Assembly (NCBI RefSeq): GCF_001659605.2 | Contig: NC_035169.2 | Coordinates: forward strand, 7,969,610 to 8,033,609 | Direction: 5' to 3' | DNA: 64,000 nt | Source of the DNA: Manihot esculenta | Taxonomy: Eukaryota > Streptophyta > Magnoliopsida > Malpighiales > Euphorbiaceae | Shown: piece by piece, positions 33,847 through 55,553 of the stretch | How positions within the stretch are numbered: the first letter of the stretch is position 1 | Layout: each line of letters starts with the position of its first letter | Notes under the pieces: model-generated | What the model saw: only the letters and a program-made list of their open reading frames with translations | What the model was told of the DNA's origin: nothing | Database searches by the model: none | Program-made: the position numbers and the translations under genes

Positions 33847-34345
33847 TGATGATCTGAAATCCAGAAAATAGGGTTTTACAATGGGTTCTGTAAAATTGGA
33901 AAAACCTTAGACCTAAAGAAGAATATTTCTCCTTTTATATGTTTTCTCTTGTCCGCTAGTGACGTGTAACAGAATATATGTCATTGGGCCACCTGCCCCT
34001 GTCATGTTGATATGGACGTACGAGAAAATCATATCGCTGCCCCATGCGTAACGGCCCCTGATTCTCATCGGGCATGCGTACAGATGGTCCCTCAAGGCGA
34101 GTGGGCTGAACTTCTTCCTGGTTCCGAGCGGGGCAGGTAGACAAGATTAAGACTAGGCCTAGAGGAGATTTGTTCATTGGGCCGAAAGAGTTGGGCCGGC
34201 CTGATTGAAGAATCTGAATAGAGCCTGGTCTTTGAGCCGGGTGGGCCTGGCCTGGCTCTTGGAGGAGACTTAGAAGCCTTCAGATTTGTGGGCTGTCCTA
34301 ATGGGCCTAGCCTTAGACCGGGACGAAGAAATCCAGCGGTCATCA
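33847..34345 (-). repeat. Tat element 3' LTR (left copy)
   Basis: 499 bp, starting TGATGATCTG and ending GCGGTCATCA. It is the same length as the right copy at 55055-55553. I counted about 26 differences by eye, mostly transitions, which is about 5% divergence and so an insertion clearly older than the nested chromovirus. Confidence 0.92.
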
Positions 34346-34357: not shown

Positions 34358-34902
34358 CCTTCTCGTCAGTTATTGCCCAACTGATGAGGGGGTAAATACC
34401 AAGAATCATTATGACCGCGCCTACTTATGTACAGCTTGCCTCATAACACGCTTTCACCTTATTGTCGTTTAGACTTTCGAATCCTCTCTGTCTTTTTCCA
34501 CTTCTAGCTTTCCTCTATTCTTTGTGCATGCTGCCATCTTCGCTTTCCTGCTTTTATCTTCAAGGTACGGTTTTCTTCCTTTCTCATGAATAGCTTTTAA
34601 GGGTCCTGGTACCGCTAACCTAGAGTCTAGCGTCGCCTCGTCCAGCATAAAAACCTCATTCTCAGGGTATATCTTGATATCATCTCCCTTTTCACCTTCA
34701 GGACCCTCACCGGAATGAAAGGATCTTTCTTCTCGATCCACATACCTCTGGTATAATCGATCTTCAGAAAGACGTGAGCTTAGTTTTCTCTGTTAAATAG
34801 AAAAAGTATGGTTTACCCTTTCCCTTATCTCCTTTCTTCCACGGGGTTTTCTAGTATTTTGAGATTGCTTCTTGAATACTGACCCCTAATTTCATTCTCT
34901 TC

Positions 34903-36366
34903 ATGTCTTTTTTCGAATATGTCTGTCTGAGCGGGGGTTTTACATCCACAGGACATCTGTTCAATACCTTCTTCGGGTTGGTCAAGGCGAGCCAAAAATG
35001 TTATTGCTTTGTCTCTCATGCAGGTTTGTTTTAATCTTAGTTTTGTGACTTTTACTGAGAATCGTTCTGACTTGCTTCGGTTTTGGATTTTTGGCAGCTT
35101 CTAAGATGAAGAGGGATCAGATTAAGCCCCCTAAAATTCTTATGCTGCCCAGGGGGAGCCTGAACGTTGCCTCGGGCTCCCTCTTAATGGGACGATCGGC
35201 GGGGAGGTTTACCCAACAAGTGGCCGAAGTCATATCGTTCAGGTCGTCCAGCCGGCCTCCTCCTCCTGCTCTTGTCCGAGCTCCGGAACTAAGTTTTCGA
35301 GGTGCCGAATCTTCAAGGCTGCCAAGTATCGACAGGTCGGTCTCAGCCGCTCTAGCTGTTCAAGCTCTCAGGTCCCCTCAGACTTCAAGGCCGAGCGAGG
35401 ACTCCGGGTTGATGGGAGCGAAGCCTGCTCCGCCTTTTGGCGATGCTTCTGGAGAGAGGCTTGATGCCTCCATAGCTGAGATGGGGACCCTTGCAAGCAG
35501 GGCTGAGATCGCCTCTGTGAGGAATGTCCATGGGGTCCTTTCCGAGGTCGGCCCAACTGTCGAGGATAGGGAACTCAGCTTTGTAGATGATGGGGGTGTA
35601 GCGGAGAAGGTCGGGGGCAAGCGTCCCATCCCCACAGAAGTGCTTGTCCTGGTTCGCGTTCCAAAGAAGTCTTGGGCTTCTAGAAGACCGGCTCCTGCTT
35701 TTCTTCCTCTCGGGAAGAAGGAGAAGGTTCCCGTGGTGCCCCCGATGTCTGCTCCTAACTCAAACTCATGGAATAACATGGTTCCTGAGATTTATTGTGA
35801 AATACAAGATGTAGTTCACACATGTAACATAAAGCAGCTCATGGCGGGCTCGTGTCAGGATTTCGATATAGGGCGCTTGTGCTATGAGGAACAGAGATTT
35901 GTTGCACTCAATCGAGCTTCTGTTGATGCTTTCAAACATGTGTTTCGTGATATTCAAAGTTTAGCTTACAAATATGCAAGTGAGGACAATGCATTAATGA
36001 CTATGTTTAAATCAGGAAGCAAGGGTAATCTGCTAAAATTAGTCCAACATAGTATGTGTGTAGGTTTGCAACATTCACTTGTTCCATTACTCTTCAGAAT
36101 GCCTTGTCAATTTTTCTGTGGAATGTTTTGTTCATTCAGTAACCAGTCGACAAGGCTGATCTTCCTGGGACTTTAACTTGAAGACTTATGTTTTTCATGC
36201 GTGATATACACACAGCATATGATGGAACAGTGAGAGATGCTTATGGGTATTAACTTGTTCAGTTCTCCTATAATGACGAGACGGAGTTCAGCTGGAGTGT
36301 AAGGAGCGTCTAAGGGAGTATAGGGAGTCCGCCGAGCTAAAAGTGGGGGATCCAGCAGACTTGTGA
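34903..36366 (+). CDS. Antisense ORF (aORF) of the Tat element, chimeric with an NRPD1 fragment
   Basis: This lies on the strand opposite to gag-pol, between integrase and the 3' LTR, where Tat-lineage elements often carry an antisense ORF of unknown function. A spliced model fits: exon 1, 34903-35023 (ATG, 40 codons, MSFFEYVCLS...), donor CAG|GTTTGT, acceptor TTGGCAG, and exon 2 from 35098, phases matching. An alternative start is the ATG at 35106. The first 220 residues of exon 2 are basic, then Pro/Ser-rich (RSSSRPPPPALVRAPELS). From about 35775 the frame runs straight into NRPD1-like sequence and stops at 36174-36176. After that block, a 28-codon stretch from 36280 to the stop at 36364-36366 (containing ECKERLREYRESAELKVGD) looks like a coiled-coil tail in another frame, as though the original aORF had been interrupted by the captured segment. 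Confidence 0.55.
35775..36274 (+). pseudogene. NRPD1: Captured fragment of RNA polymerase IV largest subunit (NRPD1)
   Basis: About 500 bp reading as the plant NRPD1 region around its conserved AGSKGN-like motif. Seen in the aORF frame: VPEIYCEIQDVV, CNIKQLMAGSC, AFKHVFRDIQSLAYKYAS, then GSKGNLLKLVQHSMCVGLQH, ending near PCQFFCG. Two further pieces follow in other frames: ECFVHSVTSR from 36121, and from 36155 ADLPGTLT, a stop, RLMFFMRDI, then AYDGTVRDAYG, a stop, LVQFSY. Motif order is that of NRPD1; canonical Pol II largest subunits lack these exact blocks. Compared with the family as I know it, about 45 residues are missing before ECFVHS and about 7 after it. Stops lie at 36179-36181 (TGA) and 36251-36253 (TAA). 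No intron-like interruption is visible. It is sense to the aORF and antisense to the element's genomic RNA. Pol IV itself makes the siRNA precursors for DNA methylation of transposons. Confidence 0.85.
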
Positions 36367-37330
36367 AGCTCATCTTCCGAGCTGTAAGGATTCTCCTGAA
36401 TTGAAAGCTAAGAGAATAGTGTAGGTAATAGTGATGTAAATGTAGGTGATAATGCGCCTAGGCATGTAAGTCCTTTGAGGACAGTTTTTCTTTCAGTAGA
36501 GTGAGTGATTAGACTGTAAATCTTCTTTTTCTTTGAATGAAATTTCATTTTCGTCTACTTTGCTTGTCAAGCCCATCAGAACTAAAATTCTATCAACTGA
36601 CTGAACTTTTGACTCATAAATTTATCTATTTCACTAAGGCATTCTTATTTGTAAGATCTTTCAGTTACTATGAGCTCGGTCACACAGCCTTTGCTTACTA
36701 ATAATAAGTCAGATCATGTACCTTTAAAGGTGATGAGCAGGGCTGGCCTTTTTGCTTTGAGTTCTGATTTGATTCTGATTTGACAGGAACTGAAGCTAGG
36801 GTCTTATCTGCTTACGCCATTGGATTTCTTCTCGAGTTGCCCCTTTACCTCCTCAGTATTTATTACATGAGTGGTGAAGGGGTAAATCCTTATACTTTAT
36901 TTGCAACAGCGCGGCTTCATTTTAGAGGATTTTACCTCTCTTGCTGGTTATAAGCTCGGATATCTGGTCCCTCTAGAAGTGACCCTTTGTCAGTCTGTGC
37001 GGTCTGGGCTATATGCTCCACAGGGATGGGGAGTTCAGCTGTATTGTCGTTTTCCTCTCCCAGGGTCATTTTTGCTAAGTATTTATTTACTGTGAGTTAA
37101 TTCGAGCTGTGAATGGGATCATTTGCTTTTGTCGTGAGTCCGTCCATTCAGCAGATTAAGGAGCTCGGATTTTTGTTCTTTGCTTGGGCTTTTGCGCTAC
37201 AGCTTTTGCGCTATTTGTGTGACGGGCTCAGGAGTTCAGAAATTCACCTTTCTCATTGTGAAGTCAATACTTAATTTCTTGCTTTCTTGACGAGTCTTAT
37301 ACGGGCTATGTTTCAGGGATCCTAGTCATT
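36367..37330. other. Non-coding 3' region of the Tat element
   Basis: Contains a likely transcript end for the aORF (TTTGAATGAAATTTCATTTT near 36531). It also contains an internal copy (about 36838-36895) of the block beside the 3' LTR: CCCCTTTACC ... GGGGTAAAT, arms that can pair. No coding sequence was recognised. Confidence 0.45.
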
Positions 37331-37577
37331 CTTGCTCCGGGGAGATCTTGGAGATCCTGCCGGCCATTTTTGCTCCAGGAGATCTGACGAGATCCTGGCC
37401 GTTTTTGCTCCAGGAGATCTGACGAGATCCTGGCCATTTTTGCTCCAGGAGATCTGACGAGATCCTGGCCGTTTTTGCTCCAGGAGATCTGACGAGATCC
37501 TGGCCGTTCTTGCTCCAGGAGATCTGACGAGATCCTGGCCGTTTTTGCTCCAGGAGATTTTTGAGATCCGCCGGCCT
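37331..37577 (-). repeat. 35-bp tandem array between integrase and aORF
   Basis: Five near-perfect and two degenerate units of about 35 bp with the core TTGCTCCAGGAGATCTGACG and GAGATCCTGGCC. Units contain the complementary words GGATCTC/GAGATCC. Tandem arrays in this position are typical of Tat-lineage elements. Frames through the array give repetitive Ser/Arg/Gly strings that are not proteins. Confidence 0.85.
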
Positions 37578-37849: not shown

Positions 37850-39754
37850 TCAGGGGAAGTACATTTTCAAGTACTGGATATTCCAGGCATGGAGTTCAGG
37901 GTTTCCCTGCATATCTTCATTTCGGTATACTCCTGGCTTGACTACTTTTACTATTCTGAAGGGGCCCTCCCAGGTCGGTGCCAACTTGCCTACTGCCGCT
38001 CTTTTTCCAGTAGCCTCCAGGTTTCTCAGGGCCAGGTCTCCCACCTTTAGGCTTCTTTCCCTGACCCTTTGATTGTAATAACGGGCTGCCCGTTGTTGGT
38101 AAGCGACAGTTCGAACTAGAGCTTCCTCCCTAACCTTTTCGAGAGCATCCATGTTGCTCCTTAATTTGTCCTCGTTAGTGCTCTCGCTAGCAAATTGGAC
38201 TCGGTGAGTGGGGATTTGCAGCTCGACTGGGACTACGGCCTCTGTGCCAAAAGTGAGTGCAAAGGGCATTTCTTTAGTGGACGTTCTGGGGGTAGTTCGG
38301 AGTGTCCACAGAATGCTGTTGAGCTCTTCCGCCCAGTTCGCCTTGGCCCCATCCATCCGTTTCTTCAATCCTTGAAGGATTGCTCTGTTGGTGACCTCTG
38401 TTTGACCGTTGGTCTGAGGATGGGCTACTGAGGAGAACTTGTGCCATATACCCATGTTTGCCGTAAACGCTTTGAAGGCGCTGCAATCAAATTGCCTGCC
38501 GTTATCTGAGATGAGTACTCTGGGTATGCCAAATCTGCAGATGATGTGCCCCCATACAAAATCTATCATCTGACGGGCTGTGATTGTGGGGATTGCCTCC
38601 GCCTCTGGCCATTTTGAGAAGTATTCCACAGCCACCACTACAAACTTTTTCTGCCCCGTGGTTTTGGGAAAGGGTCCCAGGATGTCTATTCCCCATTGTG
38701 AGAACGGCCACGGGCTGGATATGCTGGACTGAGGAGTGGCTGGTATATTGATGGCGTTGGCAAACCACTGGCATACATCGCATTTCCGGACGAACTCTCC
38801 TGCCTCTTTCTTGACAGTGGGCCAGTAGTATCCTTGCCTGAATATTTTATTGGCCAGTGTTCCTGCTCCTTCGTGAGCTCCACACATTCCTCTGTATATC
38901 TCTTCCATCACTTTCATTGCCTCCTCCGGGTTCACAAATCGAAGCCATGGGCTGGACTTCCCTTTTCTGTACAAGGTCCCCCTCACTGCTTGGTAGTTAG
39001 CAGCACGAGCTGCTATCTTTCTCGCTTCATCCTTGTCTTCAGGGAGCTTTCCTTTTTCCAGATATTCCAGGTACGGGGTCATCCAAGTCTGGCTTTGTTC
39101 TACCTGCAACACAGTGGCTGATTTATTAAAAGCAGGTGTACTGACATGCTGTATGTATACTTCATCAGGGAGTTGTTCTAGTTCTTCCTTGGATAACCGA
39201 CTAAGCATGTCTGCTTCTTCGTTTTCTTCTCGAAGTATTCTTTGGTATTTGACGATGGTTCCCCGACCCTTGAGCTCGGCTTCTATGGCTCTTACCTTTG
39301 CTAGGTAATTCTGCATGGTTGGATCTCTAGCCTGATATGCTCCAGTTACCTGATTGATCACCAGCTGGGAGTCACTATTCACTTCGAGGTCAGTTGCTCC
39401 TACCTCCATTGCCACCAGCATCCCATTTATTAGGGCTTCATACTCTGCCACGTTATTGGAGGCCTTGAATTCCAGGCGTAGGGCGTAGCAGACCTTTAAT
39501 TCTCCAGGTCCTTTAAGCATTATTCCGGCGCCACTGCCCCCGGCGCTTGATGCCCCATCTACATACAACTTCCATTCGAATTCTTGGAGAGGCTCTCCTT
39601 CTCTCCCATTCCCCGACGCTTCAGAAGATGACTCTCCCCGCTCCTCGTTGAACGAGCATTCTGCTGTGAAATCAGCAAGGGCCTGAGATTTTATAGCGGT
39701 CCGAGGTCGATACTCTAGGCAGTAAGGGCTAATCTCCATGGACCAAGCGAGCAT
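37850..39754 (-). CDS. Tat element archaeal-type RNase H plus integrase (intact frame, 3' part of pol)
   Basis: A 634-residue open frame. Residues about 55-190 form the second, archaeal-type RNase H: WKLYVDGASS, then SNNVAEYEALINGM, then NSDSQLVINQVTGAY, supplying the acidic D-E-D residues. The integrase follows: a zinc-binding region ending CDVC, a catalytic core with D in GIDILGPF, D in ISDNGRQF and E in NGQTEVTN, then a C-terminal domain with LKVGDLALRN and WEGPFRIVKV. It ends YLKMYFP. The frame is separated from the upstream RT/RNase H frame by a one-base loss near 39752. This is the best-preserved part of the outer element's pol. Integrase inserts the cDNA into the genome. A second RNase H is the lineage marker for Tat. 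Confidence 0.88.
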   Translation of the reverse strand: MLAWSMEISPYCLEYRPRTAIKSQALADFTAECSFNEERGESSSEASGNGREGEPLQEFEWKLYVDGASSAGGSGAGIMLKGPGELKVCYALRLEFKASNNVAEYEALINGMLVAMEVGATDLEVNSDSQLVINQVTGAYQARDPTMQNYLAKVRAIEAELKGRGTIVKYQRILREENEEADMLSRLSKEELEQLPDEVYIQHVSTPAFNKSATVLQVEQSQTWMTPYLEYLEKGKLPEDKDEARKIAARAANYQAVRGTLYRKGKSSPWLRFVNPEEAMKVMEEIYRGMCGAHEGAGTLANKIFRQGYYWPTVKKEAGEFVRKCDVCQWFANAINIPATPQSSISSPWPFSQWGIDILGPFPKTTGQKKFVVVAVEYFSKWPEAEAIPTITARQMIDFVWGHIICRFGIPRVLISDNGRQFDCSAFKAFTANMGIWHKFSSVAHPQTNGQTEVTNRAILQGLKKRMDGAKANWAEELNSILWTLRTTPRTSTKEMPFALTFGTEAVVPVELQIPTHRVQFASESTNEDKLRSNMDALEKVREEALVRTVAYQQRAARYYNQRVRERSLKVGDLALRNLEATGKRAAVGKLAPTWEGPFRIVKVVKPGVYRNEDMQGNPELHAWNIQYLKMYFP

Positions 39755-41985
39755 CGACCTGATGTTTCCGGCCTGCGCAGAATCTTCTTCAGAGGTTGGT
39801 CTGTTATCACCACACCTTGATGGCTTTCCAGATAGACCCTAAACTTCCGGACGGCTAGCAATAGAGCATACGCCACTTTTTCAATGTTCAAATATCTGAC
39901 CTCAGCATCCTTAAGCACCTTGCTGACGTAAAACACTGGCTTTTGTTCTCCTTCGTCTACTCTTACCAATACTACACTGATTGCTTGTTCAGAGGCTGCC
40001 AAGTATATCAAAAGTTCTTCGCCTTCCAAGGGGCTACTGAGCACATGGGGCGAGCTGAGGTAGCCTTTGAGCTCTTTCAAAGCTTCTCAGCAGTCTTCCA
40101 TCCATTCGAAGTTTGGTACTTTCCTCAACTTCTTGAAGAATGGCAAGCATTTCTCTGCCGACTTGGACATAAAGCGGTTTAACGCCACTACTCTCCCAGT
40201 TAGTCTCTGGACATCCCTTACACAGGTCGGCTCTGGCATATTCAGTATAGCTTCTACTTTCTCTGGATTGGGCTCGATGCCTTTCCCACTCACCATATAT
40301 CCCAGGAACTTTCCTCCTCTGATGAAAAAGGCACACTTCGCTGGGTTCAGCCTCATTCTATACTGTTCTAGCACCTCAAATACCTCCCTCAGATCTATCA
40401 TATGCTGCTGGAAAGTGGGGCTTTTGACCACCATATCATCTACATAAACTTATACATTTCTGCCGATCTGATTTTTGAAGATTTTGTTCATTAGTCTTTG
40501 GTATGTTGCCCCGGTGTTTTTTAGCCCGAAGGGCATGGCTTTATAGCAGTAGGTTGCATCTTCTGTTATGAACGAGGTCTTTTCTTCGTCCGACCCGTCC
40601 ATTGGGATTTGATGATAGCCAGACATAGCATCCAAAGAAGACATGTAATTGAAACCGGCCGTAGAGTCAACCATTGTATTAATATCAGGGAGGGGATAAC
40701 AATCTTTAGGACAGGCCTGATTTAGCACAGTAAAATCTATGCACATCCTATATTTGCCATTGGCTTTTTTGACTAATACAGGATTTGCTAACCACTGCGG
40801 GTACATGACTTCCCTAATAAAGCCTGCCTCTTCTAACTTCCGTACTTCCTCCCTGGTGGCCTGTTGCTTCTCCCTTCCTACCACTCTCTTCTTCTGTTGT
40901 ACCGGTCTGGCGTCGGGGAGGACGTTCAGCTTATGGGTCATCACCTCAGGGTCAATCCCAGACATGTCAGAGGGCTTCCAGGCGAAGCTCGATGCGTGAC
41001 CTCGGATTAGGGCCATGACTTCAGTTTTTTATTCTTCAGTAAGGCCGGCATTGAGACTGAAAACCTTATCTGTCTCTGCCTCTGATAAAGGAAAAGTCTC
41101 CAACTCTCCGACCGGCTCTGTTCTGGCCTTTTTCTTCTCATCCCTGACCTCTAGCACTTCTGAGTCGAGCCTCTCTGCTGCCGAGCTCGGTTCTGTCACT
41201 GTGGCTAAGTACACTGCTCTCGCCTCTTCTTAGCTTCCCCGGACTACTCCCACTCCTGCCTCTGTTGGGAATTTCAACGCCAGATATCTGATACTGGTGA
41301 CGGCCTCGAAGTCAAACAGTGCAGGTCTCCCCAAGATTGCGTTGTAGCTCAACGGGAGTTTGACCACTAAGAACACCGCATAATGGGTGCGAGTTCTCGG
41401 CGCTTCGCCTAAGGTGAGAGCCAGCTTCACTTTCCCTTCTACGGACACTGGTACTCCTCCAATCCTCTTGACCGGTGCCTGATCCCGGACTAGCTGTTCC
41501 TCGGGGATTCCCATCTGCTGGAAAACCCGGTAGGATAATAGGTTCACCTTGCTCCCATCATCCACTAAAATCTTCTTGACTCGGTAGTTGTGAATGACGG
41601 CTTCAACGACAAGGGCGTCGTCATGGGGCATTTGAACGCCCTGGGCATCCTCTGGAGAGAAGGTGACGGCCACTGGAGAGTGCTCGACGACCTGCATGAC
41701 CTCGGCGTTGTTGCTTTCCCCTTCTCGACTCCTCTTCTTTCCCCTACGGCTCATCCGACCTCCAGTTCCCCCGACAATCATGTTGATGGTTCCACTGGAC
41801 CCATCATTCACTGGTCCAGTTCCTGCTCTCCTTGGTACTTGGGCTGCCGGATTGGTCTGAGGTCCCTGTCCCTCCGGTTTCCTCACGAAGTTCTTGAGGT
41901 GTCCTCTTTTTATCAGCCTCTCGATCTCTGTGATCAACTGGAAGCAGTTATTGGTGTCGTGCCGTGTGTGCGATGGTACTGACAA
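39755..41985 (-). pseudogene. Tat element protease, reverse transcriptase and first RNase H (broken frame)
   Basis: One minus-strand frame (41985 down to about 39755) carries in order an aspartic protease (ILVDDGSKVNLLSYRVF), a linker, reverse transcriptase (IDFTVLNQACPKDCYPLPDI, then SLDAMSGYHQIPM, MPFGLKNTGATYQRLMN and YVDD just after 40447) and the first RNase H (LLIYLAASEQAISVVLVR, TDQPLKKIL). Stops interrupt it at about 41230, 41026, 40447 and 40084. A one-base loss near 41964 breaks it from gag and another near 39752 breaks it from the aRH/integrase frame. The stop at 40447 falls directly before the YVDD active site, so no functional polymerase can be made. Domain order and the second RNase H downstream place it in the Tat lineage. 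Confidence 0.88.
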
Positions 41986-42163: not shown

Positions 42164-44413
42164 TGTAATACCCGGCTAGACTCCGATATCGGAATTTCAA
42201 CCGTCCGGTGGAATCTCGGATGTCGGAAACCTCTAGAAGGGTAAAACCAGGTTTTTATAAAATGTTTTCATGTATTTTAATGTTTTGAGCATGAAATTAA
42301 ATGAGCTTTTGCATGAATAATCTTTGGAGGAAAACCCAGGTTCGGCCGCCGAAAGTCAAGTTCGGCCGCCGAACATGCATGCGTTTTGGAGGCACGTTAG
42401 GCCCCCGAAAGCATGAGTGAGGGAAGTCCAGGTTCGGCCGCCGAAAGTCAAGTTCGGCCGCCGAACATTGCATGGATTCGGAGGCACATTCGGCCCCCAA
42501 ACGTGGCCTGGCCAGCCACCTATAAAAAGGGGACTTAGCCGAAACGGGTGAGTTTTCTCCCATTTTCGGCCACAGCTAGCTTCCAACCTCCCTCTCCCAA
42601 ATCTTTTGTTCTTCCTCCAAATCCCCACCATTTTTCTTAAGTTTTGAGCTTGCATTGAAGGTTTTGAGCTTTTAAAACAAGTTTTGGAGCTTGGGAGACT
42701 CAGGAGCCCATTTGCTTGGATCTCCGAGTTTAGGTCGTCTCTCTCTCAATCTTCAAGAGGTAAGAGCCGATCTTGAGCTCAATGTATGTTTTTAACAAGT
42801 TTTAAGTAGATTTATGGGGTAGAAATGCATGTTAGGGTTATTTGAATATTTGGGTTTATATTATGATTTCGAACAATGTGTGTTGATTGTGTGTGTTTGA
42901 AGTGTTGTAGTTGGGGTATATGACTGTTTGAGACCCCTAGGAACTTGTATGCATGTTTTGGTTGAGATTTATGCATGATTTGAGGTTTTGGGAGGCAAGG
43001 GGTTCATGTGAACCAAGTTTCTGCCCTTCTGGCAGAAACCAGGTTCGGCCGCCGAAGGGAGTTTCGGCCGCCGAACCCCCTTGTGGAGGCAGCATTCGGC
43101 TGCCGAAGCTTGCCCCCGAAAGGAGACTTTCGTCTCTGTCTGGGACTTTCGGCCGCCGAAGGTGCCGCCGAAAGTGCCTGACTTTCGGCTCTGGAGGGAC
43201 TTTCGGCCGCCGAACCTGCCGCCGAAAGTGCCCTGTCCAGCCATTTCATGCATGTGTTTCTATGATTATTTCATGATGTTCTAGGGGGTTTTTGGGGAGT
43301 TTATTAGAGTTATGTTTATATATGTTTGGTCCTTCATTGGAGTCCACCTGTGTAGGTTCGGACCCGAGAAACCGAGGACCCCAGCAGTGAGATAGCTGCT
43401 TCAGAGTCTGTAGAGCTTCAGCCAGAGGTGAGTGGAATAACCTTAAGTCTTTAAACAAATGAAATATAACTTTTGAGCACGTTCATGCATCATATATGCC
43501 ATGTGATATTATAGGGTGTTTGCATTAGTTTTCACGAATATGTTGCATTGCATAATTTGATGTGGATGTGGATTGGTTATTGAATGATCCTTTAGTCCTC
43601 TTATGCTATGATATGATGATGTTATGGTAGAGAAAGACCAGTGAGGCCCATTCTACGCCCCTGGCACAGAGAAAGAGAAAGACCAGTGAGGCCCATTCTA
43701 CGCCCCTGGCACAGTTGGACTGCTATGTTATGTTATGCTATGTAAGAGAAAGACCAGTGAGGCCCATTCTACGCCCCTGGCACAGTTGGACTATGTTGAG
43801 GACTATGGGTGACAATACCATCCTTGATGTGACTTGTTTGTGTTGTGTTGCATCCCATGGTAGCATGAAGATTTTAAATACATGTTTTTCTATTCTGCTC
43901 ACTGGGCTCTTGTAGCTCACCCCCTCCCCTAATATCAGATGTGCAGGTACAGGGTAGACCAGGAGATCAGCCAGAGTTATGAAGTCATAGATAGATTGTG
44001 GACATGACAAATGATTAAGATGTAATGTAAAGTCTAGTACAGTTATGTATTTTCAAGTTATGATATTGAGGATAGAGTTGTGCTTGACCAATACAGATTG
44101 TTAATCCCACTTGTATGTACATGGTCTTTATGATATGAGATATGAGGTTATGTTTCAACCAAGCTTATGTATGATGAGATACCCCATTGGAGCATTTGAT
44201 GAGGGCTCCAGTGGAGGTTTATGATATGTTTATGTTTATGTACAGGTTGAGCTTGGTTGTTATATGAAAATGTTTACAGGTTTATGAGTATTGTTGATCA
44301 TGTATGGGATTAAACAGGATTACAGGTTATGTCAGGCTTGCTACGGTTCCCGGCGGCCTTATGCCGATCTGGATCCTAGCGCCGGTAACGGTCCGGATTT
44401 CCGGGGCGTTACA
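42164..44413 (+). repeat. Chromovirus 5' LTR
   Basis: 2250 bp, ends TGTAA/TTACA. It has a TATA box (TATAAAAAGG at 42521), eight exact copies of the hairpin-forming 13-mer TTCGGCCGCCGAA between 42341 and 43214, and three copies of an approximately 40-bp unit (AGAAAGACCAGTGAGGCCCA core) at 43629-43785. Reading frames inside it are artefacts of these repeats. Confidence 0.95.
42521..42530 (+). promoter_or_regulatory. TATA box of the chromovirus LTR
   Basis: TATAAAAAGG lies within the GC-rich first quarter of the LTR, just after the first block of TTCGGCCGCCGAA motifs. The right LTR has the same site at 51803-51812. It probably sets the 5' end of the genomic RNA. Confidence 0.6.
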
Positions 44414-44416
44414 GAG

Positions 44417-44428
44417 TGGTATCAGAGC
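44417..44428 (+). other. Chromovirus primer-binding site (initiator Met-tRNA)
   Basis: TGGTATCAGAGC starts three bases after the 5' LTR. It is complementary to the 3' end of plant initiator methionine tRNA, the usual primer for this clade. Confidence 0.92.
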
Positions 44429-47400
44429 CCTAGGTTTGTATGGTCGGACCTAGCGTGTCGGGCTCATAGAGGTTGTAGAAGGTCAAGCACAATAGGAAAA
44501 GTCATGTCCACTAGGATAGGATATGGAGTCCTGTCTTGTATGATGATGTGATATGCCATGGTTATATGCATGTGCATAAATGATATGTTATGTATGCTAT
44601 GTATGTGATGAGGGTTTATGTGTGCCCACATGAACCATATGATGCTGATGTTCTATGTGTTATGTGCTGTTTTCAGAAAACAGGATGAGAGGAACTCGTC
44701 GATCTGCACGATTGACTGGAATGCCACCTGAGGATGAGGGCATGAGCGCCCGTCCTCCAGCATTGCCTAGGGAAATGTCTAGCAGGTCCAACAGGGACAG
44801 AGCAGTAAGGGACCCTAGAAGGTCTTTGGATCTGGGTAGAAGCAGATCAGTCAGAGGAACAGTTCAGGGAGGAGCATCAGAGGATATGGGGGATGATATG
44901 GATGTAGACCAGAGGAGGGATGGCAGTTTGGGGATGAGTATGTCAGAGGAAGGCATGGGAGAGTCCCAAGGAGGCACTCAGGCCTCGGGTTTTGTTCAGC
45001 CACCTCATTACCCACCTTTCTCATAGAATCCCGGGTATTCGATGGGAGGTACATCGGATTACCCTAGTTTTAGCCCTTACCCCACACAGATGCCATACCC
45101 ACCATATTACCCACCATACCCACAGTATCCTATGTATCCACCACCACCCTACCATCCAAATCCAGCAAACCCTACCACAAAAAATGTTGCACCTCCTCCA
45201 CCAGCAGCAGCACCTACTGTCCCAGGAACCCAAATACCTCAACCTGGCTCATCTGGAGGGAGCAAGGTCAGAATGACTGATTATATGAAGTTGGGTGCTC
45301 CCCAGTTTGAAACCGGTGATGACCCGTTTGTGTACCTTGAGAGGGTCAAGGCGATAACAGATGAGATAGGGGCGGATGACAGTAGAGCCATTCAGATGGC
45401 TGGGTTCACACTAAAATGCAAGAAGGCCCGTGAGTGGTTCAAGGGCTATGTGAAACCGAGGGTGGATAGTCTATCATGGGAGGAGTTTGCTAATGAATTT
45501 GCAGGGTGGGCTTTCCCTGATAGTTCAAGGGAATTGAAGATGATAGAATTCGAGCAGTTGAGGCAAACTGATGACATGAGTATAGATGAATATACTGACA
45601 GATTTATGGAGTTGCTGCCATTTGCTGGGCAGAACCTTGATACAGATCAGAAGAAGTCAAGGAGGTACATCATGAAGCTCCATTCCAGGTATTCCTCCTT
45701 GATACAGTCGGCAGATAGAGAGAGTTTTCATGCCATAGTAGACATGGCTAGGAGGATGGAGGCTAGTGCTATCATCGAGGGAAAAGTCAAACAGTCAGTA
45801 GCACAGCCTTCTGGTTCCAAAACCCCAGGTAGGGGAAAAGTGGATCCTTCTTCCTTAAGCTCAGGTAGTAAGAGGTGGGGCAGTACCACCAAGAAGTTTA
45901 AGAAGAACAAGTTCTGGAACAAGATCAAGTCAGGTCTGGGATTAGGAAGTGGCTCGAGCTCAGGTGCAAAGAATGCAGTATGTAAGAAATGTGGGAGACC
46001 GCACAGAGGAGTATGTTTGGTTGGGACATCAGCCTGCTTCAGATGTGGGCAGGAGGGACACATGGCACGAGAGTGTCCTAGAGCAGCTTTTGTGACACAG
46101 TCTCAGCAGACAGCTTCTGGTAGTGTGGCACAGTCAGTAGCTCCAGCCATGACACAGGCCAGTGGCAGAGGCAGAGGGAAAGGGTCAGCCTCTTCTTCAG
46201 CAGGGTTCAGAGGTGAGGGTCCGTTAGCTCCAGCAAGGATCTTCACCATGACACAGCAGGAGGCAGATGCATCTAACACCGTGGTGGCAGGTAACTTAGT
46301 CATTGGGTGTTCTGATGTGTATGCATTAATGGACCCTGGTGCATCTCATTCTTTTATTGCTCCGAGGGCCGTAGAGAGGTTGGGATTAATGGTCTCTGGG
46401 TTAGAGTGTCCTCTCTGGGTCAGTGGACCCAAGTGTGATCCATCAGTGGCAGAGTCAGTCTGTCAGTGTAGTCCAGTTTTTGTTGAGGGGAGATGCATGT
46501 CCGCCGACCTTGTGGTTCTAGATTTGACAGATTTTGACGTCATTCTAGGGATGGACTGGTTATCAACCCATGGCGCTACCTTGGACTGCAGGGACAAGGT
46601 AGTCAGGTTCAGAGGTCAGGATGGATCAGAGGTCGTCTTCAGAGGAGACAGGAGGGGTACACCTAGAGGTTTGATCTCATCTCTTCAGGCTCGTAGGTTG
46701 CTTAGGAGGGGATGTCAGGGGTATTTGGCTCATGTGAGAGAGCTAGACAGTCAGATTAGAGAGCCCGCCGCAGTGCCAGTGGTCAATGAGTTTTTAGATG
46801 TGTTCCCAGACGAGTTGCCAGGTTTACCACTTGCTAGGGAGATAAAGTTCGAGATAGAATTGATGCCTGGAACCTGACCGATCTCTATCCCTCCCTACAG
46901 GATGGCACCAGCTGAGTTGAAAGAATTGAAAGAACAGTTGCAAGAGTTGGTAGACAAGGGCTTCATCCGACCGAGTACCTCACCCTGGGGTGCTCCAGTG
47001 CTGTTTGTAAGAAAGAAGGATGGATCCCTTAGACTTTGTATCGACTATAGGCAGTTGAACAAAGTCACTACCAAGAATAAGTACCCATTGCCAAGGATCG
47101 ACGATCTATTCGACTAGCTAGCAGGAGCGGGTTGTTTCTCCAAAATAGATTTGAGATCTGGGTATCATCAGCTGAGGATCAGGGAAGAGGATGTACCGAA
47201 GACAGCTTTCAGGACCAGATATGGGCACTATGAGTTCCTTGTAATGCCGTTCGGGTTAACCAACGCCCCTGCAGCATTCATGGACCTCATGAACAAAGTG
47301 TTTAGACAGTACCTGGATCACTTCGTTATCGTCTTCATAGATGATATCTTAGTGTATTCCAGGAATGCAGAGGAGCATGCCCATCATCTGAGGATAGTTC

Positions 47401-49515
47401 TGCAGACCTTGAGGGAACATGGCTTGTATGCCAAGTTCTCCAAGTGTGAGTTCTGGTTGAGGAGCATCTCGTTCTTGGGGCATGTAGTGTCAGAGAATGG
47501 AATAGAGGTAGACCCCAAGAAGGTAGAAGCTGTAACTAACTGGCCTAGACCCACCTCAGTGACAGAGATCAGAAGTTTCTTGGGTTTAGCTGGTTATTAC
47601 AGGAGGTTCGTTCAGGACTTCTCGAAGATTGCAGCTCCTCTAACCAGATTGACCAGAAAGAATCAGAGGTTTGAGTGGACCGATCAATGTGAGGAAAGCT
47701 TTGAGGAGCTCAAGAAGAGGTTAACTTCAGCACCAGGGTTAGCTCTGCCGACTAGCAATGATGACTTCACAGTGTTCTGTGATGCATCCAGAGTAGGCTT
47801 GGGTTGTGTGTTGATGCAGAATGGCAGGGTGATCGCTTACGCCTCTAGACAACTGAAGAGGCATGAGTTGAATTACCCCACACACGATCTTGAGATGGCA
47901 GCAGTCATCTTTGCACTCAAGATGTGGAGGCACTACCTCTATGGGGTGAAATGTGAGATCTTTACAGATCATAAGAGCCTGCAGCACATCTTGAGCCAGA
48001 GAGAACTGAATTTGAGACAGAGGAGGTGGGTAGAACTGTTGAGTGACTATGATTACAAGATCCAGTACCATCCGGGTAAGGCTAATGTAGTGGCTAACGC
48101 CTTAAGCCGGAAGTCACTTGGCAGTTTATCCCACATCACGGCAGAGAGGAGACCAGTGGTGAAGGAGTTTTACAAGCTCATTGAGGAAGGTCTACAGTTG
48201 GAGTTGTCTGGTACAGGTGCCTTGGTTGCTCAGATGAAAGTGACACCCGTGTTTCTGGAGCAGGTGGCTCAGAAACAGCATGAGGACCCAGAGTTAGTGA
48301 AGATTGCCAGGACTGTTCAGTCAGGCAAGAACAGTGAGTTCAGATTTGACAATAAGGGGATCCTCCGCTATGGGAGTCGATTGTGTGTACCAGATGACAT
48401 AGGGCTAAAAGGAGACATTATGAGAGAGGCTCATAATGCAAGATACAGCATTCACCCCGGAGCCACCAAAATGTATCAGGATCTGAAGAGAGTATATTGG
48501 TGGCCAGCTATGAAGAGGGAAGTGGCACAGTTTGTGTCAGCCTGCGAGGTATGTCAGAGGGTGAAGCTGGAACATCAGAAGCCGGCTGGAATGCTTAACC
48601 CGCTACCTATTCCAGAGTGGAAATGGGAAAATATAGCTATGGACTTCGTAGTGGGGTTACCGGCAACATCCAACAGATTAGACTCCATATGGGTGATTGT
48701 GGACAGACTCACTAAATCTGCTCACTTCATCCCTGTTAGGAGCAACTACTCTGTGGATAAGCTAGCGCAGGTGTATGTTGAGGAGATTATCAGATTGCAT
48801 GGGGTCCCAGTGTCTATAGTGTCAGATAGAGGGCCCCAGTTCACCTCCAGGTTTTGGCGGAGTCTGCAGAGTGCTATGGGTACCAGGTTGGATTTCAGTA
48901 CTGCCTTCCATCCCCAGACTGATGGACAGTCAGAAAGGACCATCCAGACTATCGAGGATATGCTTAGAATGTGTGTGCTGGACTTTAGCGGTTCTTGGAG
49001 GCAACATCTACCTTTGGTGGAGTTTGCCTACAATAACAGCCATCATGCTAGCATCGGGATGGCTCCATATGAAGCTTTATATGGGAGGAAGTGCAGGTCA
49101 CCTGTTTGCTGGGAGGAAGTTGGAGAAAAGGCCTTGGCAGGGCCTGAGTTAGTAGAGATCACCAGCAGGGTGGTACCCATCATCAGAGAGAGAATCAAAA
49201 CTGCTACAAGCAGGCAGAAGAGTTATGCAGACCTCCACAGGAAACAGGTAGACTTTCAGGAGGGGGATTTAGTATTGCTCAAGGTGTCTCCAATGAAAGG
49301 GGTGGTTCGGTTTGGTAAAAAGGGTAAGCTAGCTCCACGGTACATCGGACCCTTTGAAGTCTTGCAAAAGATTGGGAGTGTATCGTACAAGCTAGACTTG
49401 CCTGCTTCTATGGAAAGAATCCATCCGGTTTTCCATGTTTCCATGTTAAGAAAGTACGTGTCAGATCCGAGCAAGGTTCTTAGTGAGCCTGATGTGGAGA
49501 TCCAAGAGGATCTCA

Positions 49516-49520
49516 CTTAT
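49516..49520. repeat. Target site duplication CTTAT, left side of solo LTR
   Basis: CTTAT precedes the TGATAGAG start of the inserted LTR and recurs at 51187-51191 after its CTCTGTCA end. The duplication lies inside the chromodomain-proximal codons of the host gag-pol. Confidence 0.88.
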
Positions 49521-51186
49521 TGATAGAGTATAGTTTAGTCCATTTTATATTAATATTATTGATAAATATTTACATGATTTCTGCTTAATTTATTACTTTT
49601 AATATTATTTTGCAGAAAATAATATAAAAGGACAAATTGGAGAAAATATCCCTAAAATTGCCTTATTTGAAGCTAAAGGAGCAAGCCTGCACATGAATCC
49701 GCAATTGAATGACCAAGCCCACGCACAATGACAGCCCATGGAGCCACTCACGCACTTCGCATGGACCATTCCCGCGCGCAAGGCCCGCCAAAGTGCAACG
49801 CTTCAATCTTCACAACACATGCACATGGCCCGTTGAAACTAAAGCTCTTCACGCGAACCAAAGCTCTTTCTTTGCACATGGACCCGCTCACTCACACTCA
49901 TGCACTCACGCCTCCACTCATTCAAGCACATGGACCAATCTTCATATGGGCCCCGCCGATCCACACCTTCACTCCAGCTCACGGACGGCCCGCTTCGACG
50001 CCCACGTGCACTGTACCTATTCACTCCATCAAAACGCGCAAATGGCCAGCAATTGCAACCACTTCGCATGGGCCCCGCCAAGGCGCTCCAAGCTGCACAC
50101 GCAAAGGCCCGCACCGCCACTCTTGCAAAGAACCGCGCACGCGAGACAACTTCCTAATTAGTGCGTCCTCTGCGCTCTATTTAAGGGACTTTAAGCGGCC
50201 AGAGAATGGATCCCTCCTGTTCGGCGATTTCCGCCGGCCTCTGCGCTCCATCGGTTCTCTCTTTTCCTTTTCCTTTTTTTTATTTTATTTTTCTGTTTTC
50301 AATTCAGTCAATGAGTGGCTGATTTTCCATCTAGTTGAATATTGGTTGAAACTTTAGTTATTTAATGGGTTGTGAGACTTGATCAAATATTGTTTAATTT
50401 TGGAGATTCAATATTCATGCAATTTCATATTTAATTCTCATATTATTTTGTTATTGAAATCTACGTTGATTTTTATTGCAAAATAATTATTTGTTAGTTT
50501 GAATAATTTAAGTCCGTAATTGCTTGGGTTATTCTTACATGAGAACACTTGGGATAAAATCCAAGAAAATTGCATGATCTAGCGTTATCTCCATACGTTT
50601 GGGTAGCTAGGATTGGATCTCTCTATTTCTTAATGCAATTGACAATTGTTTTGATGCCTAAGGCCCAAGGACGTTCCTTGGCAATTTGTTGATTAGTAAT
50701 TAATTAGAGGACGTTCCCTAATTGGTTTAATCATAAGGAGAGATAATGGTGGTGAGAAGCGTCTTCCATCTCCATAAACTAATCTATTGAATTAACCCAA
50801 AAGAACAAAGTGTCTGTGATCAACCCCAACAACTAAAGTGGATCCAATATTTCAACTAGAGCTTTCTCATTATTAATTACTTTTTACTTAATTATTTGCT
50901 TTCTATTATTATTCTCATTATTAGTTACTATAATCATTCTCAAACCCCCCATTTTACTTTTATTGCAATATATTTTTGTTCTGCTTTCAGTTTATCTCAT
51001 TTGATCCCACTTTCAGTATTTTATCTCATCTTTAATTTATTATTGTTTCAGTTTATTGGTCTGTTTGAGAAAAATAAATAGGTAATCAATTCTCTGTGGA
51101 TTCGATCCTTTCACCACTATCTGCAGTTGTAAATTGTTGATAACCAGAAAGGTTATTTTTGGCCGGCTTCGACAACCGCTCTGTCA
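49521..51186 (+). mobile_element. 1666-bp solo LTR inserted in the chromovirus gag-pol
   Basis: It starts TGATAGAG and ends CTCTGTCA (an imperfect terminal inverted pair) and is flanked by CTTAT on both sides. The last 130 bp, with GTGGATTCGATCC and a GGTTATTTTTGGCCGGCTTC-like tail, resemble the 3' ends of Ty3/gypsy LTRs of the Athila/Tat group. It holds a GC-rich block (49690-50170) with repeated ACATGG and CGCA words. It has no gag or pol, and no second copy exists in the window, so it is a solo LTR or less likely a non-autonomous unit. The open frames inside it have no protein-like composition. It is the youngest of the three nested insertions. Confidence 0.82.
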
Positions 51187-51432
51187 CTTATGTTGAGCAG
51201 CCAGTGCGGATCCTAGACACACAGATCAGAAAGTTGAGGAACAAGGAAATCCCGATGGTTAAAGTCCTTTGGAACCACCACAATATGGAAGAATGCACTT
51301 GGGAGACACGGGAGTCCATGCTCCAGCAGTACCCTCATCTCTTTTAAGGTTAGATCTCTTTGTGTTTGTATGTATGTTATGATGTATGCTATGCATGTGT
51401 TAGTTGAGGAACATTCGGGGACGAATGTTCTT

Positions 51433-51445
51433 AAGGGGGGGAGAA
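51433..51445 (+). other. Chromovirus polypurine tract
   Basis: AAGGGGGGGAGAA lies immediately before the 3' LTR start (TGTAATACCC at 51446). Confidence 0.85.
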
Positions 51446-53692
51446 TGTAATACCCGGCTAGACTCCGATATCGGAATTTCAACCGTCCGGTGGAATCTCG
51501 GATGTCGAAAACCTCTAGAAGGGTAAAACCAGGTTTTTATAAAATGTTTTCATGTATTTTAATGTTTTGAGCATGAAATTACATGAGCTTTTGCATGAAT
51601 AATCTTTGGAGGAAAACCCAGGTTCGGCCGCCGAAAGTCAAGTTCGGCCGCCGAACATGCATGTGTTTTGGAGGCACGTTAGGCCTCCGAAAGCATGAGT
51701 GAGGGAAGTCCAGGTTCGGCCGCCGAAAGTCAAGTTCGGCCGCCGAACATTGCATGGATTCGGAGGCACATTCGGCCCCCGAACGTGGCCTGGCCAGCCA
51801 CCTATAAAAAGGGGACATAGCCGAAACGGGTGAGTTTTCTCCCATTTTCGGCCACAGCTAGCTTCCAACCTCCCTCTCCCAAATCTTTTGTTCTTCCTCC
51901 AAATCCCCACCATTTTTCTTAAGTTTTGAGCTTGCATTGAAGGTTTTGAGCTTTTAAAACAAGTTTTGGAGCTTGGGAGACTCAGGAGCCCATTTGCTTG
52001 GTCCGAGTTTAGGTCGTCTCTCTCTCGATCTTCAAGAGGTAAGAGCCGATCTTGAGCTCAATGTATGTTTTTAACAAGTTTTAAGTAGATTTATGGGGTA
52101 GAAATGCATGTTAGGGTTATTTGAATATTTGGGTTTATATTATGATTTCGAACAATGTGTGTTGATTGTGTGTGTTTGAAGTGTTGTAGTTGGGGTATAT
52201 GACTGTTTGAGACCCCTAGGAACTTGTATGCATGTTTTGGTTGAGATTTATGCATGATTTGAGGTTTTGGGAGGCAAGGGGTTCATGTGAACCAAGTTTC
52301 TGCCCTTCTGGCAGAAACCAGGTTCGGCCGCCGAAGGGAGTTTCGGCCGCCGAACCCCCTTGTGGAGGCAGCATTCGGCTGCCGAAGCTTGCCCCCGAAA
52401 GGAGACTTTCATCTCTGTCTGGGACTTTCGGCCGCCGAAGGTGCCGCCGAAAGTGCCTGACTTTCGGCTCTGGAGGGACTTTCGGCCGCCGAACCTGCCG
52501 CCGAAAGTGCCCTGTCCAGCCATTTCATGCATGTGTTTCTATGATTATTTTATGATGTTCTAGGGGGTTTTTGGGGAGTTTATTAGAGTTATGTTTATAT
52601 ATGTTTGGTCCTTCATTGGAGTCCACCTGTGTAGGTTCGGACCCGAGGAACCGAGGACCCCAGCAGTGAGATAGCTGCTTCAGAGTCTGTAGAGCTTCAG
52701 CCAAAGGTGAGTGGAATAACCTTAAGTCTTTAAACAAACGAAATATAACTTTTGAGCACGTTCATGCATCATATATGCCATGTGATATTATAGGGTGTTT
52801 GCATTAGTTTTCACGAATATGTTGCATTGCATAATTTGATGTGGATGTGGATTGGTTATTGAATGATCCTTTAGTCCTCTTATGCTATGATATGATGATG
52901 TTATGGTAGAGAAAGACCAGTGAGGCCCATTCTACGCCCCTGGCACAGAGAAAGAGAAAGACCAGTGAGGCCCATTCTACGCCCCTGGCACAGTTGGACT
53001 GCTATGTTATGTTATGCTATGTAAGAGAAAGACCAGTGAGGCCCATTCTACGCCCCTGGCACAGTTGGACTATGTTGAGGACTATGGGTGACAATACCAT
53101 CCTTGATGTGACTTGTTTGTGTTGTGTTGCATCCCATGGTAGCATGAAGATTTTAAATACATGTTTTTCTATTCTGCTCACTGGGCTCTTGTAGCTCACC
53201 CCCTCCCCTAATATCAGATGTGCAGGTACAGGGTAGACCAGGAGGTCAGCCAGAGTTATGAAGTCATAGATAGATTGTGGACATGACAAATGATTAAGAT
53301 GTAATGTAAAGTCTAGTACAGTTATGTATTTTCAAGTTATGATATTGAGGATAGAGTTGTGCTTGACCAATACAGATTGTTAATCCCACTTGTATGTACA
53401 TGGTCTTTATGATATGAGATATGAGGTTATGTTTCAACCAAGCTTATGTATGATGAGATACCCCATTGGAGCATTTGATGAGGGCTCCAGTGGAGGTTTA
53501 TGATATGTTTATGTTTATGTACAGGTTGAGCTTGGTTGTTATATGAAAATGTTTACAGGTTTATGAGTATTGTTGATCATGTATGGGATTAAACAGGATT
53601 ACAGGTTATGTCAGGCTTGCTACGGTTCCCGGCGGCCTTATGCCGATCTGGATCCTAGCGCCGGTAACAGTCCGGATTTCCGGGGCGTTACA
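51446..53692 (+). repeat. Chromovirus 3' LTR
   Basis: 2247 bp, nearly identical to 42164-44413. The differences noted by eye are mostly transitions, plus loss of 3 bp near 51999. It is followed by the TCTTT duplication at 53693-53697, after which the Tat gag frame resumes. Confidence 0.95.
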
Positions 53693-53697
53693 TCTTT

Positions 53698-54976
53698 GGT
53701 CCCTTCGCTCCCAGGGTTGTCTGTAAGGCTCGGGCCTCTTGCCATGCTTTTTCTCACGCCTCTCTGGCCTCCCTTCCTCTGGTGCTTTTCCCTTATCTGT
53801 CGCTCCCCTGACGAACCTGCTCGTCACCAAGGCATCATCCTGCCTTATGTATTTTTCAGCCCGCTTCATCAGCTCGGCCAGTAAGGTCTGAGGCTTCCTG
53901 CTTAATGAGCCAAAGAACTCGGCTGAGGTCGTCCCCTTCTGCATGGCTTCTACAGCCCTTCCCTCATCGAGCTCGAAAATTTGCAGGGCCTCCGTATTGA
54001 AGCGAGCGACGTATTCCCTGAGCGATTCGTCTCTCCTCTACCTGACCGTCTCCAGGTAACTCGTCTTCCTATCTGCGGGCACCCCGGCGATAAACCGGCT
54101 GATGAAGCGAGTGGCCAGATCTCCAAATCTGCTAATACTTCCGGCCTCAAGGCTATTGAACCACGCCCACACTGGCCCTGAGAGCGTCGTAGGGAATACC
54201 TTGCACATCAAGGCATCTGACAAAGTTTGCAGCTCCATGAAGGTCTTGTAGTTCAAGACGTGCTCCCGGGGGTTCCCAGCTCCGTCGTACGCGGCCATAG
54301 GTGGCATCATAAATTTCTTGGGAACAGTCTCTTGCTGCACCCACTTCGAAAAGGGTGAAGAGGTGGGCAGGAGAGTCTGGTTCTGATCCCTTGCTCCCAG
54401 CTCGGCTAAGAGCTGCTCTCTCATCTTTTGCAGCTTTTGGTCTATACTCTCATCTTCCTGCCTGGGCGTCTTCTCCAGACGGTATTCCTTCTCTTCCACT
54501 TTGCTTCTCGTCCACTTTGTTGTTTCGGCAGAATAATTGTCGGCCCCATCGTTCTCAATCATCTCTCTCATTCTCCTTCCATGAACCCTGGCCTCCGGTT
54601 CTTCCTCTTCCCCAGCTCTTCTCTCCCTTTCTCCGGTTTCACGGCTAACTGTTTGGGGATGGTTGTGGGTAGGTTGAGGTTCATTGGTCTGGGGCTCTTC
54701 TACCACTGGCAATACATTTGCTGGGGTGCTAAGGCCATGTTGCTGCATTATCTGCCCCAACCAATGGGCGGTGTTTTGTAGTTGGAGGGCCATGGTTTGG
54801 AGGTCCTGGTTGGACAAGGTAGCGGCGGAAGCATTCCCTGCCAAGCTTGGCGAGGAGTTAAAAGGGATGGGTGTTTGGTTGTTTGGTGTTGTGGGACTGG
54901 AAAAGGAGAACTGCTGCCCCTCTTGGGCAGAGCTCAGGTCATTTGGAGTGACATTGTTTTCGTTGTGGTTAGCCAT
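53698..54976 (-). pseudogene. Tat element gag, N-terminal part (one premature stop)
   Basis: The frame starts at an ATG (MANHNENNVTPNDLSS) and runs 312 residues to a TAG at 54038-54040, then continues in the same frame to the nested insertion at 53697. Upstream of the break are a Q/N-rich N-terminus, a charged region (GERERRAGEEEEPEARV) and the capsid-like block (KTFMELQTLSDALMCKVFPT, then WFNSLEAGSISRFGDLATRF). Downstream are FFGSLSRKPQTLLAEL and RFVRGATDKGKAPEEG. This pattern is typical of Tat gag. Gag would form the virus-like particle that packages the element's RNA. The stop plus the chromovirus insertion abolish it here. Confidence 0.87.
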
Positions 54977-55036
54977 TGTGGATCTCAGTGGGTATTGTAA
55001 GAGTGGAACTCCGGTGATGAAAAGATCTCCTTCGTT

Positions 55037-55053
55037 CCCACAGACGGCGCCAA
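55037..55053 (-). other. Tat element primer-binding site
   Basis: On the minus strand, directly inside the right LTR, the sequence reads TTGGCGCCGTCTGTGGG. The first nine matching bases, TGGCGCCGT, are those of elements primed by Asp-tRNA; the rest diverges, so tRNA identity is tentative. Confidence 0.6.
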
Positions 55054-55054
55054 T

Positions 55055-55553
55055 TGATGATCTGAGATCCAGAAAATAGGGTTTTACAATGGATTCTGTA
55101 AAACTGGAAAAACCTTAGACCTAGAGGAGAGTATTTCTCCTTTTATATGTTTTCTCTTGTCCGCTAGTGACGTGTAACAGAATGTATGTCATTGGGCCAC
55201 CTGCCCCTGTCATGTTGATATGGACGTATGAGGAAATCAGATCGCTGCCCCATGCGTAACGGCCCTTGATTCTCCCCGGACATGCGTACAGATGGTCCCT
55301 CAAGGCGAGTGGGCTGAACTTCTTCTTGGTTCCGAGCGGGGCCGGTAGACAAGATTAAGACTAGGCCTAGAGGGGATTTGTTCATTGGGCCGAAAGAGTT
55401 GGGCCGGCCTGATTGAAGAATCTGAATAGAGTCTGGTCTTTGAGTCGGGTGGGTCTGGCCTGACTCTTGGAGGAGACTTAGAAGCCTTCAGATTTGTGGG
55501 CTATCCTAATGAGTCTAGCCTTAGACCGGGATGAAAAAATCCAGCGGTCATCA
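55055..55553 (-). repeat. Tat element 5' LTR (right copy)
   Basis: 499 bp, TGATGATCTG to GCGGTCATCA, partner of 33847-34345. It is followed by CAAAT, the counterpart of CAAGT on the other side. Confidence 0.92.

Follow-up and report, generated by a model that had tools for sequence, protein, structure and literature searches.

RNA-directed DNA methylation (RdDM) begins with RNA polymerase IV (Pol IV), whose largest subunit is NRPD1. The window, a 64,000-nucleotide stretch of the cassava (Manihot esculenta) genome, contains an LTR retrotransposon with an NRPD1-like segment inside it. The question raised by this locus is whether the segment was captured from the host gene and, if so, whether it acts on that gene or is simply carried along. 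The coordinates of the features are shown in Table 1.

Table 1. Captured NRPD1 segment and parts of the carrier element in the window.
Feature	Position	Strand	Evidence or remark
Captured NRPD1 piece	35755..36285	+	from NRPD1 exon nt 1151-1844; 42-bp, 104-bp and ~17-bp deletions
Accessory ORF fused in frame to NRPD1, antisense to gag-pol	35106..36176	+	356 aa from ATG
Accessory ORF remainder after capture, frame unused by fusion	36286..36370	+	counterpart of VQLECEERLREYKESAELK in P0016
Outer retrotransposon	33847-55553	-	LTR pair and likely 5-bp target-site duplication
3' LTR of outer retrotransposon	33847..34345	-	499 bp; 94.8% vs other LTR
5' LTR of outer retrotransposon	55055..55553	-	LTR match
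Likely target-site duplication, outer element	CAAGT 33842-33846 / CAAAT 55554-55558		one mismatch
Gag-like ORF, outer element, stop to stop	54038..55114	-	ORF reading
Pol ORF, outer element, stop to stop	37850..39838	-	Pfam RVT_3, RNase_H, Integrase_H2C2, rve
Region between pol and 3' LTR, outer element	34346-37849		3.5 kb
Tandem repeat between pol and 3' LTR	37318..37569	.	35-bp unit, 5.6 copies
Second LTR element, lying within the outer element, outside the finding	42164..53692	+	LTRs and Pfam

Identity and structure of the captured segment

Translated positions 35760-36176 contain the Pfam domain RNA_pol_Rpb1_4 (PF05000), and their sole PDB matches at E<=0.1 (phmmer) are to Pol IV subunit 1 (chains 8xmb_A and 7eu0_A, E 1.6e-25), with the next match at E 0.73. 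The parent gene was located by a genome search with the NRPD1-like protein P0003 (653 aa) and lies on C2 (G000:C2:2364298-2366178, plus strand), where the matching part occupies an open exon of 703 codons. The segment is a captured piece of this host gene, which stands elsewhere in the genome. The window copy aligns with the exon in two blocks, nt 1151-1558 at 78.9% and nt 1661-1844 at 85.3% nucleotide identity, and the captured piece spans the part of NRPD1 from the funnel helices to the bridge region. Five copies group with cassava NRPD1 in a single clade of a protein tree (support 100/100), apart from twelve other NRPD1-like sequences, with branch lengths of 0.02 for the gene and 0.04-0.15 for the copies. 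Chance similarity to NRPD1 was ruled out by the PDB matches and the genome search; a relative of NRPB1 or NRPE1 was rejected on the scores of the longest copy (1.5e-67 with Pol IV, no better than 3.9e-9 with other polymerases).

The initial annotation had read the segment as NRPD1 lying between integrase and 3' LTR, and both points are confirmed, with Pol IV subunit 1 as the best match. The interval given there, 35775..36274, marks the right region within slightly wider limits, 35755-36285, which take in the microhomologies at the joins. The protein blocks listed are those of NRPD1; the last of them, from ECFVHSVTSR to LVQFSY, lie off the frame of the first ones in the window copy, since a 104-bp deletion shifts the frame. 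The piece was correctly described as antisense to gag-pol, but it was overlooked that it is sense, and in frame, for an accessory ORF of the element.

The structure of the capture is certain. The captured length is 694 bp of the NRPD1 exon, and the piece replaced about 0.85 kb of the accessory ORF (855 nt between the flanking anchors at the P0016 locus, the one uninterrupted copy with whose DNA the joins were compared). At the 5' join, ORF and gene have the 5-nt microhomology CTGAC in common; at the 3' join the shared stretch is about 3 nt. The fused ORF begins in the accessory ORF of the element, continues in frame into NRPD1 and ends at 36176 in the window. The 3' join is out of frame, and the fusion therefore lacks the remainder of the accessory protein, whose counterpart in the uninterrupted protein P0016 was read by eye, with the join DNA also compared. 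The same fusion is annotated in cassava as LOC122722383 (P0001; 80% over 98%), and a relative of it that differs in its deletions is annotated as P0002; the annotated accessory forms P0009, P0016, P0017 and P0020 showed no NRPD1 part.

Copy L042 keeps the full 694 bp without gaps; its identity is 89.9%, and its open frame extends over 440 codons. Other copies are shortened, by 42 bp alone, by 42 and 104 bp (the window type), by 104 bp without the 42 bp (L035 and L036), by loss of about 230 bp, or by a match that ends near nt 1661 (the 3'-truncated type). Several types have open frames, about 280-440 codons long from stop to stop, that span the accessory and NRPD1 parts. Copies L031-L034 have the 42-bp deletion and not the 104-bp one, L035 and L036 the reverse; a simple tree does not account for these combinations of deletion types, which suggest that element RNAs or copies have recombined. 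The 5' join position, read across, is common to the window type and types A and D, and the alignment starts agree, with the exception of L050, in which the NRPD1 match begins at nt 1375 after an additional deletion. These common joins point to a single capture event. We infer that template switching made the join with the accessory-ORF transcript as partner, which would account for the orientation of the piece. Intron loss as a test of RNA-mediated capture is uninformative, because the entire piece lies within one exon.

The carrier element and its relatives

The LTRs of the outer retrotransposon differ by a K80 of 0.055. Its pol ORF comprises RNase H and integrase (Pfam), and the gag-like ORF gives a weak match to Retrotrans_gag (E 0.018, under the curated cut-off). 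The nested element, on the opposite strand, is recent, with LTRs of 2.25 kb (42164-44413 and 51446-53692; K80 0.006) and RT, RNaseH and integrase domains (Pfam). The window also contains four copies of a dispersed repeat about 400-500 bp long (755-1198, 1736-2204, 5619-6018 and 55902-56414), with 71-82% identity.

The Retand lineage is marked by long regions between pol and the 3' LTR with antisense ORFs; in Tat/Retand elements this region measures 2.9-6.6 kb and carries tandem repeats in about half of the elements (PMC11963269). The outer element has a region whose length falls inside that range, an ORF (plus strand) antisense to pol (minus strand), and a tandem repeat, whose 35-bp unit recurs over 37362-37558. 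A TRP28 domain is reported in the antisense ORF of 97% of Retand clusters, with exceptions (PMC11963269), and TRP28 (PF04195) was not found by Pfam in the window ORF or in P0001, P0002, P0009, P0016, P0017 and P0020. Judged by the layout of its pol-3'LTR region, the outer element is Tat/Retand-like, a label limited in this way because of the absent TRP28 domain and the basis on which the lineage was judged.

Like Grande, RIRE2 and Retand elements, the cassava element thus has an ORF between pol and 3' LTR that is antisense to gag-pol, with tandem repeats nearby; for the ORFs of those elements no host-gene origin is described in the sections cited, whereas here NRPD1 is fused in and the TRP28 domain of the Retand ORFs is absent (PMC7264820, PMC11963269). 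Extra domains occur in several Ty3/gypsy families, and some are also linked to RNA or silencing: 2-ODD/AlkB in LTR elements of Phalaenopsis and ArgoL2, an Argonaute region, in those of Asparagus (PMC9289625). The 2-ODD protein of the Phalaenopsis elements is active in vitro, unlike the fusion here, which is predicted; the main text of that 121-genome screen for extra domains mentions no Rpb1 or NRPD1 domain and does not name Manihot (PMC9289625). Among the open-licence PMC papers listed for retrotransposon capture of NRPD1, cassava LTR elements and NRPD1, captured genes and silencing, and Manihot and Retand, no title or abstract beginning describes such a capture of NRPD1.

Spread and divergence of the copies

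The piece is present in at least dozens of copies. A DNA search with the fragment gave matches at 40/40 scored places (841 candidates), and accessory-ORF DNA flanks the piece on both sides in all 30 fetched copies. In the NRPD1 protein search (68 scored of 634 candidates) the listed places match the captured stretch, with two exceptions, the host gene itself and a place on C4 that resembles a paralogue. A search with nothing but accessory-ORF DNA gave 368 candidates; among the 40 matches with the best scores, the piece is present in 38. Twenty-eight of the 40 adjoin places already listed by the fragment or NRPD1 searches, and of the remaining 12 the piece is found in 10; in the two matches without it, the ORF match ends short of the join, at query base 629 and 633 of 656. 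The initial proposal that a retrotransposon captured a host gene piece is upheld for a multi-copy family, and a unique decayed copy is ruled out by the fragment and accessory-ORF searches. Relatives of the uninterrupted accessory protein are much more numerous, with 6874 candidates, of which 68 were scored. The subfamily spread after the capture while deletions shortened the piece.

Among ten 9-kb loci, nine match the window LTR over nearly its full length, and the tenth (L037) has a 57-bp LTR end. In five of the ten loci pol was found, and NRPD1 is antisense to it in all of these. One locus, L033 (G000:C15:24859000-24868000), holds a short element at 1778-7026 with LTRs at both ends (K80 0.038) and the target-site duplication AATAT; it has the accessory-NRPD1 region and no pol match, and is a non-autonomous carrier.

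Divergence of the fragment and its flanks was calculated at first from 30 copies found by the fragment itself, a biased sample, and was therefore redone on copies found by the accessory ORF. Two samples of 26 (S1) and 10 (S2) copies and the window make up 37 of the 38 carriers, one carrier on C12 being left out; S2 is the cleaner sample, since the S1 copies had first been fetched via the fragment or NRPD1 searches. Divergence from the window in S1 is 0.056 for the fragment and 0.095 for the accessory ORF (fragment lower in 25/26), and in S2 0.063 and 0.115 (lower in 10/10; ORF identity rounded). In 19 window-type copies the mean pairwise difference is 0.063 in the in-frame part, 0.060 in the out-of-frame part and 0.058 after the stop, whereas the flanking segments to either side differ by 0.099-0.140. 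The piece has thus diverged roughly half as much as the adjoining DNA, out-of-frame parts included. Transversions are also lower in the window-type copies (0.005-0.008 in the fragment, 0.011-0.035 in the flanks), and cytosine deamination alone is therefore not the explanation. When the S1 sites are sorted by base, divergence is lower in the fragment at A, T, G, non-CpG C and CpG G, but higher at CpG C (0.193 vs 0.109). Flank divergence declines towards the fragment, a gradient that could reflect spread driven by recombination.

In the branch, synonymous and type-D-versus-rest tests, for which copies were partly picked by open frames and protein score, synonymous divergence of fragment and accessory ORF is nearly equal within type B (0.067 vs 0.075) and type D (0.108 vs 0.105), so that the slower change shows most clearly in the window type; pN/pS is 0.28-0.64 on the branches of the transposon copies, where the neutral median is near 0.58, while the gene branch has 0.11-0.21; and for type D against the rest the net pN/pS is 0.34 in the NRPD1 part (bootstrap 0.19-0.64, neutral median 0.53) and 0.87 in the accessory part (0.64-1.23, neutral median 0.75-0.77). 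The value of 0.34 does not fall below the neutral simulation (P 0.12-0.16). Against the majority base in 27 copies, pN/pS is 0.85 for the fragment and 0.89 for the accessory ORF. At most, these ratios suggest coding selection on the NRPD1 part.

Possible effects on host NRPD1

Within NRPD1 nt 1151-1844, 276 of 674 21-mers and 216 of 671 24-mers have an exact counterpart in one or more of 55 copies, and no exact 21- or 24-mers from the control stretch nt 1-1100 of the same exon were found in them. The window copy alone contains 45 exact 21-mers and 26 exact 24-mers of NRPD1. Stretches that match the host NRPD1 mRNA exactly over 21-24 nt, a feature of transposon-borne counter-silencing of the miR820 kind, are present, and 32 of 37 copies match the host gene exactly over 24 nt at nt 1469 and likewise at nt 1661. 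The least diverged windows in 36 copies are NRPD1 nt 1469-1492 (24 nt, P 0.0145) and nt 1661-1690 (30 nt, P 0.0065), by a permutation of sites that ignores the relatedness of the copies. In the 10 S2 copies the same two windows are weaker (P 0.25 and 0.06), and no such windows emerged from this kind of test when 7 type-B or 10 type-D copies were taken alone. This local invariance, too, was first measured in copies found by the fragment; it is weaker in those found by the accessory ORF.

The 24-nt siRNAs require Pol IV itself, so that an RNA device would have to work through 21-22-nt RNAs or antisense pairing, or would be self-limiting. In the related element Grande of maize, the antisense accessory ORF is reported to be driven by a promoter of its own (PMC7264820); by analogy, sense, antisense and double-stranded NRPD1-like RNA as well as a fusion protein are all possible products of the cassava element. 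Were both the LTR promoter and a promoter of the accessory ORF active, RNAs of both polarities would be made over the NRPD1 sequence, and small RNAs from them would match the host NRPD1 mRNA exactly at many sites. A lowered level of this mRNA would mean less Pol IV, which makes the siRNAs by which the element is silenced. The piece would then matter mainly as nucleic acid. As our main reading, with a probability of roughly 40%, the captured piece exerts an RNA-level effect on NRPD1. The slow divergence in and out of frame, the retention of the piece in most sampled copies, the exact 24-nt matches and the miR820 precedent fit this reading; the weak windows in S2 and in types B and D, the nearly equal synonymous divergence in those types, the more diverged CpG cytosines, the gradient in the flanks and the erosion by deletions speak against it. 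The detailed course, in which transcription of the piece from both sides gives NRPD1-matching RNAs with conserved 24-30-nt sites and lowers Pol IV, with a possible addition by the fusion protein, is somewhat doubtful. The RNA-level anti-silencing device envisaged in the initial annotation is possible by sequence, and its interpretation as a whole is partly supported.

A neutral capture is equally likely. The piece would have been caught once, by template switching or microhomology repair, and spread with the element and by recombination; it would have been tolerated since the replaced stretch of accessory ORF was dispensable, and its slower change would reflect low mutability or DNA spread by recombination. 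Captured gene pieces are common in plant transposable elements (PMC7264820), and the repeated erosion by the 42-bp, the frame-shifting 104-bp and the ~230-bp deletions and by 3' truncation, the recombined deletion combinations, the gradient in the flanks and a pN/pS not clearly under the neutral simulation are all as this predicts. Less easily accommodated are the retention of the piece in 38/40 sampled copies, its low divergence relative to the flanks on both sides, transversions included, and the exact 24-nt matches at the two sites. These facts would serve equally for a homology that limits the element itself, its NRPD1-like RNA pairing with host NRPD1 RNA and mainly aiding silencing of the element, or acting in an NRPD1 feedback adopted by the host. 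Antisense transcripts have been proposed in a review to form double-stranded RNA that inhibits retrotransposition (PMC7264820), but a harmful piece would not be expected in nearly all sampled copies of an amplified subfamily, and this explanation is the least probable of those considered.

An action as protein is unlikely, although less so. An accessory-NRPD1 fusion could present the funnel-helix surface, bind RDR2 or Pol IV subunits, and block Pol IV-RDR2 assembly as a decoy. By cryo-EM, RDR2 sits on the NRPD1 funnel helices (PMC11603163, PMC10229537), with contacts at N638, E642, Y645, D710 and L714 of Arabidopsis NRPD1 (PMC11603163). The piece in L042 corresponds to Arabidopsis residues 632-865 and includes all five positions; the residue is that of the cassava gene for N638 in 51/54, E642 in 49/54, D710 in 54/55 and L714 in 50/55 copies, and the window copy keeps these four. 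At the Y645 position cassava NRPD1 itself has C, kept in 44/54 copies. The long open frames over both parts, and the lower net pN/pS of the NRPD1 part than of the accessory part in the same ORFs, also fit a decoy. However, the four contact residues are kept no more than random codons (P 0.16), the lower ratio is not below neutral simulation, 9 of 10 newly fetched carriers lack about 230 bp that include two contact residues, and the fusion ends early in the window type. A pull-down placed RDR2 binding at NRPD1 1-300, outside the piece; the part of that study cited here names just NRPD1 255-555 as non-binding (PMC8020760). The AlphaFold model of the window piece (pLDDT 48) is useless and was set aside.

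Few plant transposons are known to counter epigenetic silencing, among them those with miR820 and VANC. The rice miR820 is borne by a CACTA transposon, is possibly derived from DRM2 and targets DRM2 (OsDRM2); there as here, a transposable element carries DNA possibly from a host RdDM gene, and the sequence is amplified with the element and matches the host mRNA (PMC3459959). Unlike the cassava piece, miR820 belongs to a DNA transposon and is a fold-back microRNA with demonstrated target cleavage (PMC3459959), whereas the carrier here is an LTR retrotransposon with 694 bp of exon, known from DNA alone, and its putative target is Pol IV. VANC of VANDAL transposons is likewise a transposon-encoded counter to epigenetic silencing, for which the cassava piece is a candidate; VANC proteins are sequence-specific and involve no captured silencing gene in the sources cited (PMC10398659, PMC5735166).

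Cassava, a crop, thus holds at least dozens of element copies with part of a Pol IV gene, and the exact 24-nt NRPD1 matches make an anti-Pol-IV device testable by ordinary small-RNA sequencing. Even as a passenger, the piece shows that host gene sequence can enter an antisense accessory ORF in frame, a point relevant to the origin of such ORFs. In the NCBI annotation of cassava, the transposon accessory ORFs P0001, P0002, P0009, P0016, P0017 and P0020 are listed as host genes, under the names podocalyxin-like, verprolin-like, MAP7 domain-containing-like and uncharacterized.
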